NCBI GenBank assembly: GCA_024226235.1
Contig: JAAELW010000143.1
Location: 1-34,142 of the forward strand
Source of the DNA: a bacterium
GTDB taxonomy: Bacteria; Myxococcota_A; UBA9160; UBA6930
Direction: 5' to 3'
Length of the DNA stretch: 34,142 nucleotides
A program made the translations under genes and the position numbers. The number at the start of each line of letters is the position of its first letter. The stretch's first letter is position 1. The notes under the pieces were generated by a model. That model saw only the letters and a list, made by a program, of their open reading frames with translations, did no database searches and was not told where the DNA came from. Of the stretch, positions 9,311 through 16,962 are shown one piece after another.

Positions 9311-10468
9311 TCATTGGCAGATCGCGTGGAGATCGGCGTCGTCGATTTCGGGTTTGGTGGCTGCCAGCACCTGGAAGCGGCGAAATGCCTTCTCCAACGG
9401 AGCCTCGGAGAGGCGATAGCCCAGTGCCGCGACGCGTTGCGCGAAGCCACCACGACCGGAGAGCTTTCCCAGCACGATCTGGGTGCCGACGGTGTGGCCG
9501 ACGGCCTCCGGATCGAGGACCTCGTAGGTTTCGCGCTGCTTCAGGACACCGTCCTGGTGAATCCCGGAGGCGTGACGGAACGCGTTTCCGCCCACTACCG
9601 CCTTATTAGGCGGCACGCCGACTCCCGACCGCTCGGCGACCAGAGCCGATACCCGGCCCATATCGCGCAACTCGACACCGGTTGCGACGTCCAGCCGCTC
9701 ACCGTGTACCGAGAGGCCGGCGACCACTTCCTCGAAGGCCGCATTGCCCGCTCGTTCGCCAATACCATTGACGGCGACTTCGACCTGTCGAGCGCCGGCT
9801 GCGACCGCCGCCAGTGAGTTCGCGGTGGCGAGCCCCAGATCGTCCTGACCGTGGAAGGAGATCACCGCCTCGGGCACCAGGCCGCGCACGAACGCCACCA
9901 GTGAGGCCACCTGATCGGGCGTGGCGAATCCAACGGTATCCGGCAGATTGATCGTGGTGGCTCCGGCCTCCACCGTCGCTCGGGCCAGCTCGCCGATGAA
10001 CGTCCGATCGGCCCGGGTTGCATCCATCGGGCTGAATTCGACATCGTCCGTGAATTCGCGAGCGCTTCGCACCATCGCGGACGCCATCGCAATGACCTGC
10101 TCCCGCGTCTTGTTCAGTTGGTGGGCCAACTGCATGTCGGACGCGTTCACGAAGACGTGGATCCGGGGCTCCTCCGCATGACGCAGGGCCTCTCCGGCAG
10201 CCGCGACATCCTTCGGGACGGCCCGGGCGAGTGCACAAACCCGGGCTCCGCGGACGTTCGCGGCCACTTCCGCGACTGCGGAACACTCGGAGGCGGAGTT
10301 CACGGGGAAGCCCGCCTCGACCACATCCACCCCCATTTCGGCTAGCGCGAGGGCGATCTCGACCTTGTCGGTCGCAGAGAAACAGACCCCCGCGGTCTGC
10401 TCCCCATCACGCAGGGTCGTGTCGAAGATCACGACATGTTTGGGATCGGTCGGGTTGAACTCGGACAT
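9311..10468 (-). CDS. leuA: Short 2-isopropylmalate synthase-like protein (LeuA family, no C-terminal regulatory domain)
   Basis: IFDTTLRDGEQTAGVCFSATDKVEIALALAEMGVDVVEAGFP; NGIGERAGNAAFEEVV; HASGIHQDGVLKQRETYEVLDPEAVG. Only 385 aa. Preceded by a Leu-rich leader peptide. Confidence 0.85.
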   Translation of the reverse strand: MSEFNPTDPKHVVIFDTTLRDGEQTAGVCFSATDKVEIALALAEMGVDVVEAGFPVNSASECSAVAEVAANVRGARVCALARAVPKDVAAAGEALRHAEEPRIHVFVNASDMQLAHQLNKTREQVIAMASAMVRSAREFTDDVEFSPMDATRADRTFIGELARATVEAGATTINLPDTVGFATPDQVASLVAFVRGLVPEAVISFHGQDDLGLATANSLAAVAAGARQVEVAVNGIGERAGNAAFEEVVAGLSVHGERLDVATGVELRDMGRVSALVAERSGVGVPPNKAVVGGNAFRHASGIHQDGVLKQRETYEVLDPEAVGHTVGTQIVLGKLSGRGGFAQRVAALGYRLSEAPLEKAFRRFQVLAATKPEIDDADLHAICQ

Positions 10469-10503
10469 GGATTCGCTCCGGTGGTGCCTCCCGGCCGGAA
10501 CGC

Positions 10504-10519: not shown

Positions 10520-10557
10520 AAAAGGAAAACCCTCCCCGGCCGTTCGGCGGGAGAGGG
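10520..10557 (-). terminator. Rho-independent terminator/attenuator in the leuA leader
   Basis: Minus-strand RNA CCCTCTCCCGCC-GAAC-GGCCGGGGAGGG (11 of 12 positions pair, one G.U, one C/C mismatch) followed by TTTTCCTTTT. Confidence 0.8.
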
Positions 10558-10584
10558 TCTCGCTAGGTCGCGCTTCGTTTGGCG

Positions 10585-10656
10585 CTAGCAGACCTCCCCC
10601 GCCCTGCTAAGAAGCAGGCCGAGGAAAAGCAGCTGGCTGAACGAGCGACCATTCAT
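10585..10656 (-). CDS. leuL: leu leader peptide MNGRSFSQLLFLGLLLSRAGEVC
   Basis: 23-codon ORF (ATG at 10656, TAG at 10585) with six Leu codons within the eight residues LLFLGLLL, directly upstream of an attenuator and leuA. Below the ORF-track length cutoff. Confidence 0.8.
   Translation of the reverse strand: MNGRSFSQLLFLGLLLSRAGEVC
10591..10618 (-). promoter_or_regulatory. leu attenuator segments 1-2: hairpin over Leu codons and antiterminator strand
   Basis: CCTGC-TTCTTA-GCAGG hairpin (10603-10618) over CTG CTT CTT; GGCGGGGGAGGTC (10591-10603) is complementary to GACCCTCTCCCGCC (10546-10559), the 5' arm of the terminator. Confidence 0.7.
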
Positions 10657-10665
10657 GGTCCGATG

Positions 10666-10694
10666 AGTATCGACTGAACGGCGCGGAGAGTCAA
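10666..10694 (-). promoter_or_regulatory. Sigma70-like promoter for leuL-leuA
   Basis: TTGACT (10689-10694), 17-nt spacer, GATACT (10666-10671) on the minus strand, 9 nt upstream of the leader ATG. Confidence 0.6.
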
Positions 10695-10705: not shown

Positions 10706-11275
10706 CTAGAGCTCCAGCAGCTCACCCAGGCGCCCCGGATCGAAGCCGATCACCAGCTGACCGTCGATATCGATCGTCGGTGTAGCCCAGCGGGCCACCT
10801 TTCCGCGCAGGTTCTCCTGGGCGCGATCGGAACGGATGTCCAGCTCCGTATACGGCACCTGGTGACGTGTAAACCAATTGGCTGCCGATTCGCAGGCGTG
10901 GCAGCCCGGCGAGCTGTACATGACCACCTCGTGGGAGGCGACCGCAAAGGGACGCGAACCTCCTGCAGCATCCTGCCGGGGCCCCGATGGGGCCGGGATC
11001 GACGCGCCCAGCTCGATGCGCCCGACGTCATCCCGAAAGCGCTCCGGAACCTGCTCCAGCGAGTCGACGAACTGGACAGCGCCCTGCTCGTCCACGTACT
11101 GGAAGAGCACCCGTTGCGGGCCCTTCTCGAAATCCGTGAAGGATTCCGCGAACTCGAAGGGGGCACCCTCCTGCGCCCAGCTGGCAAGTTTCTCGGAGGC
11201 GTAGCGGGAAAGGACCCAGCCACCGACGGCCGAAACCACCAGCATGCCCGCCAGCGCCAGGAGAAAGGAACGCAT
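10706..11275 (-). CDS. Membrane-anchored glutaredoxin-like protein with N-terminal DUF4124-like segment
   Basis: N-terminal hydrophobic MRSFLLALAGMLVVSAVGGWVL; YVDEQGAVQFVDSLEQVPERFRDDV resembles DUF4124; C-terminal VVMYSSPGCHACESAANWFTRHQVPYTELDI...ATPTIDIDGQLVIGFD is glutaredoxin-like with CHAC. Confidence 0.75.
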   Translation of the reverse strand: MRSFLLALAGMLVVSAVGGWVLSRYASEKLASWAQEGAPFEFAESFTDFEKGPQRVLFQYVDEQGAVQFVDSLEQVPERFRDDVGRIELGASIPAPSGPRQDAAGGSRPFAVASHEVVMYSSPGCHACESAANWFTRHQVPYTELDIRSDRAQENLRGKVARWATPTIDIDGQLVIGFDPGRLGELLEL

Positions 11276-11313
11276 GGCCCCTCTTTCGGCAGGTCGAACC
11301 CGTGACTCCAGAC

Positions 11314-13725
11314 CTATCCGACCCCGACCAACGCCAGCCGGTCGCCCCAGCGGGTCCGCACCGAACGGGCCAGCTCCGGGGCCCGACGGAGACCCGGATC
11401 GGCTCTCAGGGTCTCGTTGGCCGCTTCGCGGGCTACAGCCACCCACCTGGCGTCCCGGACCAGATCGGCGAATCGAAGGTCCGGCAACTTGCCATGTTGG
11501 CGGGTGCCCAGGAACTCACCCGGCCCACGAATGCGCAGATCCGCATCGGCGATGCGAAAGCCATCAGTCGTCTGCAGCATCGCCCGCAAGCGGGCCTCGC
11601 TGTCCTCCCCGCCACCACGGGCCACCAGTACGCAGGTTCCGGGTCGCTCGCCCCGACCCACGCGCCCCCGCAGCTGATGGAGCTGGGCCAGGCCGAAGCG
11701 CTCGGCGTGCTCGACGACCATCAGCGTGGCAGCGGGAACATCGACACCGACCTCGATCACTGTCGTAGACACGAGGATCCGCGTCTCCCCGGCCATGAAC
11801 CGAGCCATCGCTTCGGCTCGAGCTCCGGCATCGAGGCGGCCATGAACCAGATCGACCGCCACATCGGAAAACGCCGCACGGATCCGCTCCGTACTCTCGG
11901 TCGCCGCGCGCAGGTCGAGCTTCTCGGACTCCTCGACCAGCGGATACACCACATACACCTGCTCACTGCGATCCAGAGCTTCGCGGACGAGACGCGTCAC
12001 CTGTTCGCCCTCTCCCTCCCTGAGCAGCAATGTCTCGGTCGGGCTTCGACCCGGTGGCAGTTCATCGATCACGGACAGCTCGAGATCTCCATACAAGGTC
12101 AGGGCCAGGCTGCGGGGGATCGGAGTGGCCGTCATCACGAGCACGTGTGGGCTGACACCACCCTGTGTCTTTTCGGCCAGGGCCGCCCGCTGCATCACGC
12201 CGAAGCGATGCTGCTCGTCGATCACGACCAGGGCCAGGCGGGCGAATCTCACATCGCTCTGCACCAAGGCATGGGTGCCGACGACCAGATCGACTTCTCC
12301 TTCCGCAAGAGCCTCCCGCACTCTCGGAGCATCCGGAGCCGAAGATGTCAGGAGACCGATCCGGAGCCCGGTATCACCGAGCAACTCTCGGAGCGTCCGA
12401 TCGTGCTGCTCCGCCAGGAGTTCGGTGGGCGCCATCAGTGCGGCCTGGGTACCCGCACGCGCGGCGACCACGGCAGCCAACGCTGCGACAGCGGTCTTGC
12501 CGCTTCCCACGTCGCCCTGGAGCAGACGATTCATCGGATGGGGCTCGCGCAGATCACGTCGGATCTCGCCCCACGCGCGCCCCTGCGCACGGGTCAGGCG
12601 AAACGGCAATGCGTCTTCGGCTTCCCGGAGCACCGACTCGTCGGCAGGCAATGCGATTCCGGGCTCGGCCGCCCGCTCGGCCCGACGCTGCGCGAGGCCC
12701 ACCTCGAGCAGGTAGAGTTCTTCCAGCACGAGCCGCTCATGGGCGGGCGTGGTGCGTTCGCGCAGCGCCTCGACATCCGCCTCGCCACTCGGCTGGTGGA
12801 TCTCGTGCAAGGCCATCGGCGTCGACGGGAGCCCCCGCTCCGCGACCAATCCACTGGGCAACGTGCTGGGCACGAGATCCGCGAAATTCTCCACGGCTAC
12901 GGCAACCAGTCGCCTGAAGGTGCGGGCAGGCACGCCTTCGGGCACCGGATAGTCGGGCACGATCGGCTCGCCTACGGCTGCGCCGTCTTCTTCTTCCTGC
13001 TCGATCCGGTCGATCTCGGGATGGGTGATCTCCTTGTTGAAGCGGTAGCGGCGAACGTCCCCGGTGACGAGCAGACGCGTTCCCTTCGTCACCGTCTTCT
13101 GAAGGGATTCGCCGCCGCGGAACCACTTGAGCGTCACGCTACCGGTTCCGTCCCCGACGACGGCCTGAAACAGCCGACCCCCACGAGCGCGGCCCCGCAT
13201 CGGAACGAAGTCCGCGAGCATCACCTCGGCTTCGAAAGTCGCGCGGCTTCCAACCTCGAGTTCACCCACCGCAACGCGCTCTCGACGATCGTCATAGCGG
13301 CTCGGAAGGTGGAACAGCAGGTCCGCGATCGTTCGCAAGCCCCGCTTCGCGAGTGACTCGGCCCGCTTCGCACCGATCCCGGGCAACGTGGCAATCGGCC
13401 GGGCGATCGCAAGATCACAGAAGTCAGGCACAAGGAGCGGCCCCAGCAGTTCCAGCGCACCCTCGACTGCCCGACGCCGCTCATCTCCATCGACAGGCAC
13501 AGAGAAGATCTCCGCCACCTGCGCAAGCGTCTTTCGCACATCCGGCGGGACCGCCATGCCCATGGCCCGCTCGACCCCCAGAAGGACCGTCTTCTGCAGA
13601 TCCACGAGCCGCTCGGCATGGCTCCCCGCTGCGAACGCCAGTGGCTTCCGAATCGCCTCGATGGCTGCCGGGAACTCCATCCGACGAGGGTAGCGAGGGA
13701 AAGAACGCCCCCCCTCCGGGTTCAT
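11314..13725 (-). CDS. recG: ATP-dependent DNA helicase RecG
   Basis: LQGDVGSGKTAVAALAA (Walker A), MAPTELLAEQH, VVIDEQHRFGVMQR, VMTATPIPRSLALT, QLRGRVGRGERPG. Start either 13725 (MNPEGG) or 13680 (MEFPAA). Confidence 0.95.
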   Translation of the reverse strand: MNPEGGRSFPRYPRRMEFPAAIEAIRKPLAFAAGSHAERLVDLQKTVLLGVERAMGMAVPPDVRKTLAQVAEIFSVPVDGDERRRAVEGALELLGPLLVPDFCDLAIARPIATLPGIGAKRAESLAKRGLRTIADLLFHLPSRYDDRRERVAVGELEVGSRATFEAEVMLADFVPMRGRARGGRLFQAVVGDGTGSVTLKWFRGGESLQKTVTKGTRLLVTGDVRRYRFNKEITHPEIDRIEQEEEDGAAVGEPIVPDYPVPEGVPARTFRRLVAVAVENFADLVPSTLPSGLVAERGLPSTPMALHEIHQPSGEADVEALRERTTPAHERLVLEELYLLEVGLAQRRAERAAEPGIALPADESVLREAEDALPFRLTRAQGRAWGEIRRDLREPHPMNRLLQGDVGSGKTAVAALAAVVAARAGTQAALMAPTELLAEQHDRTLRELLGDTGLRIGLLTSSAPDAPRVREALAEGEVDLVVGTHALVQSDVRFARLALVVIDEQHRFGVMQRAALAEKTQGGVSPHVLVMTATPIPRSLALTLYGDLELSVIDELPPGRSPTETLLLREGEGEQVTRLVREALDRSEQVYVVYPLVEESEKLDLRAATESTERIRAAFSDVAVDLVHGRLDAGARAEAMARFMAGETRILVSTTVIEVGVDVPAATLMVVEHAERFGLAQLHQLRGRVGRGERPGTCVLVARGGGEDSEARLRAMLQTTDGFRIADADLRIRGPGEFLGTRQHGKLPDLRFADLVRDARWVAVAREAANETLRADPGLRRAPELARSVRTRWGDRLALVGVG

Positions 13726-13726
13726 C

Positions 13727-16962
<3,236 letters not shown>

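Follow-up and report, generated by a model that had tools for sequence, protein, structure and literature searches.

A predicted leucine attenuator before two types of leuA gene in an uncultivated Myxococcota-type lineage

The locus and the elements of the leader

The window, the whole 34,142-nucleotide stretch of DNA that we analysed, lies on contig C143 of a MAG (5.07 Mb in 564 contigs) from an uncultivated Myxococcota-type bacterium. The named carriers of orthologues are themselves MAGs labelled Deltaproteobacteria or Myxococcales, with isolate UBA9160 among these. On the minus strand, recG and a glutaredoxin-domain gene are followed by a leader and then by a short leuA-type gene (Table 1). 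The next gene downstream is acetolactate-synthase-like and lies on the opposite strand; thus, the short leuA appears to stand alone.

Table 1. Features of the leader and its surroundings, in minus-strand order
Feature	Position	Strand	Remarks
recG	11314-13815	(-)	First in the order recG, glutaredoxin-domain gene, leader, short leuA
Glutaredoxin-domain gene	10706-11446	(-)	Upstream neighbour of the leader; 3' end (10706) near the promoter
Sigma-70-like promoter	10666-10694	(-)	TTGACT 10694-10689, N17, GATACT 10671-10666
Leader peptide ORF MNGRSFSQLLFLGLLLSRAGEVC	10585-10656 including stop	(-)	23 codons, Leu-rich; ATG 9 nt past the -10 box
Segment 1 and 1:2 (anti-antiterminator) hairpin CCTGC-TTCTTA-GCAGG	10603-10618	(-)	Over Leu codons CTG CTT CTT; in the MFE fold
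Segment 2, 5' arm of antiterminator	10591-10604	(-)	Pairs with 10546-10559; codes for the peptide end RAGEV
GGCGGGGGAGGTC within segment 2	10603-10591	(-)	Sequence read directly
Segment 3 GACCCTCTCCCGCC, arm common to antiterminator and terminator	10559-10546	(-)	From sequence, folding and pairing counts
Segment 4 GGCCGGGGAGGG, 3' arm of terminator	10541-10530	(-)	From sequence and pairing counts
U-rich tail TTTTCCTTTT	10529-10520	(-)	3' of the terminator stem
Hairpin over leuA Shine-Dalgarno (SD), GTTCCGG...CCGGAGCG	10474-10501	(-)	SD unpaired 0.01, p 0.01; possible second layer
Short leuA-type gene	9311-10468	(-)	385 aa; HMGL-like and HCS_D2, without the LeuA_dimer allosteric domain

A first-pass annotation, made from the letters of this DNA, had described a promoter, a short Leu-rich ORF, a hairpin over its Leu codons, pairing segments and a U-rich tail, and we found all of these motifs in place, to the base. 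The promoter-like site is the sole one in 2 kb when both strands are scanned. The terminator consists of a GC-rich hairpin followed by TTTTCCTTTT, with an interrupted U-tract (in relatives the tail is commonly TTTCGTGTTTC), and it sits before a structural gene. The set of elements that the annotation had described is confirmed with one correction: the terminator stem contains a C.C mismatch, which is kept in relatives, and helix 2:3 is free of mismatches (one G.U). A simple terminator scan of the region did not list the attenuator hairpin.

Two measures set this region apart from shuffled sequence. The folding z-score of the 221-nt region is -4.3, and none of 200 shuffles was equally stable. 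Among upstream 12-mers, the best complement to segment 3 reaches -24.0 kcal/mol, a value that was reached in 0 of 500 shuffles (shuffle mean -11.3). The Leu content of the window's peptide (6 of 22 codons) is weak when taken alone, with P about 0.02.

Conservation and the competing helices

We sampled 80 genomes of the host's order and searched them with a covariance model built from 16 aligned leaders upstream of short-leuA orthologues. The model matches a leader in 68 of the 80 genomes, with E down to 1e-29, and some genomes from the wider class and phylum match as well. The short leuA is present in 25 genomes of the order and the whole leader lies directly 5' of it in 23; in one more (G033) the terminator half is found at a contig end, and in G014 the stretch upstream of the gene is masked, so that the leader count refers to genomes with readable upstream DNA. 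In every such genome of the order the leader directly precedes the short leuA (23 complete, one cut by a contig end). Upstream of all of the short-leuA orthologues, a Leu-rich ORF is followed by segments like GGGCGGGAGAGG, CCCTCTCCCGCC and GGCCGGAGAGGG, and every leader element of the window is conserved in the orthologues. By the annotation's own account, a lack of conservation of the Leu-rich ORF or the alternative pairing upstream of leuA orthologues would refute it; both are conserved there.

For comparison among leaders we assembled 63 with orthologous Leu-rich ORFs, 28 before a short leuA and 35 before a type-II leuA. All 28 short-leuA leaders contain a Leu-Leu run and 26 of them contain Leu-Leu-Leu; over the full set, LLL is found in 58 of 63, and 26-27% of residues are Leu. 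Of the leader Leu codons, about 31-32% are CTT, as compared to 4.7% in the window's leuA, recG and hppA, and such rarely used codons would sharpen the response. An exact-pattern scan of the host's own genome returned no further cassettes; this pattern also misses the window's own copy, from which it differs at one position (Y/C), and the null result therefore gives no evidence of absence.

The promoter is conserved in a fixed relation to the peptide. Counted from the start codon, TTGAC lies at -35 to -41 across leaders. A TTGAC box accompanied by a -10-like hexamer that ends 5-11 nt before an in-frame start codon occurs in 47 of the 63 leaders and in 0 of 1260 dinucleotide shuffles. At sigma-70 promoters, transcription begins about 7 nt past the -10 box. 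At this spacing the mRNA would therefore begin at or next to the ATG, and the leader peptide mRNA is probably leaderless.

To quantify pairing we used alignment A3, which comprises 61 leaders fitted to the covariance model; the model holds helix 3:4 and does not hold helix 2:3. Helix 2:3 is paired in 96.1% of cells and has 13 double-changed cells, compared to a shuffle mean of 2.0 (0 of 500 shuffles as high). Helix 3:4 is paired in 95.9% of cells and has 47 double-changed cells, compared to a shuffle mean of 12.8 (0 of 500 as high), a count that is favoured because A3 was fitted to a model containing this helix. Since related sequences are not independent, these shuffle counts are not probabilities. 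At column 145, within segment 3, U changes to C along with its partners in segment 2 and in segment 4 (11 and 12 sequences). Thus, helices 2:3 and 3:4 both show compensatory changes, and the covariation search that had been proposed for this locus finds them in both of the competing helices.

We then asked how the two folds respond to a ribosome, using constrained folding with a footprint assumed to extend 15 nt from the A site; the values are equilibrium estimates without kinetics. In the window, with the ribosome stalled at Leu codon 9, 10, 12 or 14, the probability of helix 2:3 is 0.80-0.92 and that of helix 3:4 is at most 0.05. A ribosome stalled at either of the last two Leu codons or halted at the stop codon, or the absence of a ribosome, gives the terminator a probability of 0.83-0.91: helix 3:4 has a value of 0.91 with the ribosome at the stop codon and 0.90 without a ribosome, where segment 2 is sequestered by the 1:2 hairpin and the terminator forms. 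The suggested RNA folding thus gives an on/off alternation of two folds in the window. A stalled ribosome switches the prediction from terminator to antiterminator in 51 of the 63 leaders, including that of the window (22 of 28 short-leuA and 29 of 35 type-II leaders), and 12 of 63 fall below the switch criterion in this simple equilibrium model. With the ribosome at the stop codon, the terminator forms in 61 of 63 leaders (26 short-leuA, 35 type-II).

Enzymes and transporters behind the leader

The best NCBIfam matches of the short LeuA are to 2-isopropylmalate synthase (IPMS), and all of them miss the cut-off, as the protein lacks the C-terminal domain; when the protein is tested for membership as a 2-isopropylmalate synthase, the catalytic HMGL-like and HCS_D2 domains are present and LeuA_dimer is absent. 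A further 41 genomes of the order have this leader directly before the gene of another enzyme, a type-II 2-isopropylmalate synthase, which carries LeuA_dimer and exceeds the NCBIfam cut-offs. The short form is found in 25 of 80 genomes and the type-II form in 42 of 80; they are found together in none, where 13 would be expected by chance. The Fisher value of 1.5e-11 overstates the evidence because the genomes are related, and MAG incompleteness may hide some genes in these co-occurrence counts. One type-II leuA, in G068, has no leader that the covariance model detects. The host (G000) also has a second, full-length LeuA (L225, on G000:C509), which has the allosteric domain, scores above the IPMS cut-off and has no leader. 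This gene closely follows a CDP-alcohol phosphatidyltransferase-like gene, and we rejected it as a regulated leuA on account of that close spacing and the missing leader. We also rejected an HMGL-like protein on G000:C107 as a type-II leuA, as it has no LeuA_dimer.

These data bear on whether the leader could be a real leucine attenuator before an enzyme other than isopropylmalate synthase, for example a citramalate synthase or another homologous synthase. The missing LeuA_dimer, the scores below every NCBIfam cut-off and the second full-length LeuA of the host, with its allosteric domain and its score above cut-off, are what such an enzyme might present; however, the best matches are all to isopropylmalate synthase, and behind this leader stands either the short form or a clear type-II isopropylmalate synthase, the two never occurring together. 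We consider another enzyme improbable, and the short enzyme is presumed to catalyse the isopropylmalate synthase reaction.

Both forms occur within one genus (short in G013, type II in G010) and within families f1, f4, f7 and f8. The type-II locus of G059 has the same carA-carB-recG flank as the short-leuA genomes G000, G013, G017 and G062, the genes that we take to be carA and carB having been named by sequence recognition. The gene was therefore apparently exchanged in place at the G059 locus, and the attenuator appears to have been retained. Other type-II loci have different neighbours from those of the short-leuA genomes.

Related genomes of the order also contain leaders with Trp codons, which lie before an MFS transporter gene (L165, L173, L174, L177, L181 and L195). 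In these leaders (WCW, WTW, AWTVWKW, SWWK), two or three Trp codons replace the Leu run. They share with the Leu leader the core of segments 2, 3 and 4 and the position before the gene, and differ in having Trp as control codons; some MFS homologues have no such leader, and the likeness of the segments could partly reflect a terminator type common to the lineage. In G017, an MFS homologue (L238; G017:C50:134947-136113) lies directly behind the short leuA, and this placement suggests that the transporter may be linked to leucine metabolism or export. In genus g44 (L188, L190, L192, L199, L220), several sites where we recognised no target gene share a conserved stretch GGAGG(G/A)(G/A)ACTCCG... 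with a CCCCTCCCGCC/GGCCGGAGGGG hairpin after it. For the terminator-only matches (model positions 87-139) before other genes in this genus, we found neither a Leu- or Trp-rich peptide nor a recognisable target, and they were not used. We see it as an evenly balanced call that the attenuator was kept while the enzyme behind it was swapped between two non-orthologous isopropylmalate synthases, with and without the allosteric domain, and that Trp codons took the place of Leu codons in a copy that came to control a transporter.

Mechanism and relation to known attenuators

The leader could instead act mainly on translation, with the hairpin over the leuA SD as its output, either alone or via a relay, with segment 4, once freed, pairing to the anti-SD arm. 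Pairing of the SD is almost complete in the window's genus; across relatives the trend is moderate, with SD accessibility in short-leuA leaders averaging 0.17, compared to 0.34 in shuffles (p<0.05 in 8 of 26). These values are suggestive of a second regulatory layer. However, when we modelled the relay, accessibility rose by more than 0.3 in just 2 of 26 short-leuA and 6 of 35 type-II leaders, and we rejected it. Moreover, the leaders conserve a terminator-like hairpin and its U-rich tail 70-150 nt upstream of the start codon, a feature for which a switch acting on translation alone would have no use, and we regard a mainly translational output as very unlikely. An ordinary terminator of the upstream glutaredoxin-like gene next to an unrelated small ORF, with no regulated switch, is less likely still and close to negligible: the upstream gene does end near the promoter and terminator-only matches do occur elsewhere in related genomes, but the peptide, segment 2 and the promoter are jointly conserved in 63 leaders, compensatory changes occur in helix 2:3 although a plain terminator has no need of it, and the element is kept before two leuA types.

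The leader is thus very probably a ribosome-mediated transcription attenuator that senses charged tRNA-Leu and controls the leuA-type gene. The attenuation architecture claimed by the annotation holds up in the conserved Leu-rich ORF, the mutually exclusive helices 1:2, 2:3 and 3:4 and the computed switch. RNA polymerase would start at or within a few bases of the leader ATG, and the peptide would be read from a leaderless mRNA. When Leu-tRNA is scarce, the ribosome would stall at Leu codon 9, 10, 12 or 14, the four upstream ones, leaving segment 2 free to pair with segment 3, and the polymerase would continue into leuA. When leucine is plentiful, a ribosome at the stop codon would cover segment 2, and segments 3 and 4 would form the terminator; with no ribosome, segment 1 would hold segment 2 and the terminator would form too. 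In this way tRNA-Leu may control leuA transcription. The attenuator assignment is based on the sequence and its conservation, on compensatory changes, on the spacing of promoter and start codon and on the computed switch, and from these we infer the transcription start site, translation, termination, leucine dependence and isopropylmalate synthase activity.

The annotation had placed the element under the enterobacterial leuL paradigm. This likeness is one of function and not necessarily of descent, shared with the leu operon attenuator described in Shewanella (PMC2659441): a Leu-rich peptide, an antiterminator and a terminator that share a segment, a 1:2 hairpin over the control codons and leuA downstream. 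A search of Rfam with the leader returned no family match, indicating that Rfam holds no such family, and Leu_leader (RF00512) did not match at the gathering threshold or among matches with E up to 10. Unlike leuL, this leader has other sequences and probably a leaderless peptide, precedes a single short leuA rather than a leuABCD operon, and is also kept before a second, unrelated leuA type. Precedents for leaderless leader peptides, with an mRNA that begins at or near the start codon as is probable here, are Streptomyces LeuL1/LeuL2 (PMC8079986), Corynebacterium glutamicum ilvBNC (PMC11857589) and S. meliloti trpL (PMC7298713). Streptomyces LeuL1 precedes leuA without a typical terminator; here, in contrast, the antiterminator/terminator pair is complete and conserved. 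The actinobacterial LEU element is described as a pseudoknot with the SD (PMC1262725); in our folds, which cover nested helices, segment 2 is the partner of the Leu codons and a local arm is that of the SD. A report on Streptomyces ilvB and leuA, in which mutation of candidate codons gave results that were not consistent with classical attenuation (PMC1262725), counsels caution.

Proteobacteria provide the best-known cases of classical amino-acid attenuation, and Actinobacteria and Firmicutes some partial ones (PMC2965389, PMC1262725). The mechanism proposed here is an ordinary one and is well supported; for the lineage and the RNA family we found no description in the open-access literature. 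Taken together, these data point to a deeply conserved leucine attenuator family, absent from Rfam, in an uncultivated Myxococcota-type lineage. They may also present a natural experiment on the exchange of roles between RNA regulation and enzyme allostery: as the short enzyme lacks a leucine-binding domain, leucine may control it solely through the attenuator, whereas the type-II enzyme behind the same leader retains the allosteric domain. With the copies in which Leu codons are recoded as Trp, the rewiring of tRNA specificity would become open to direct test.
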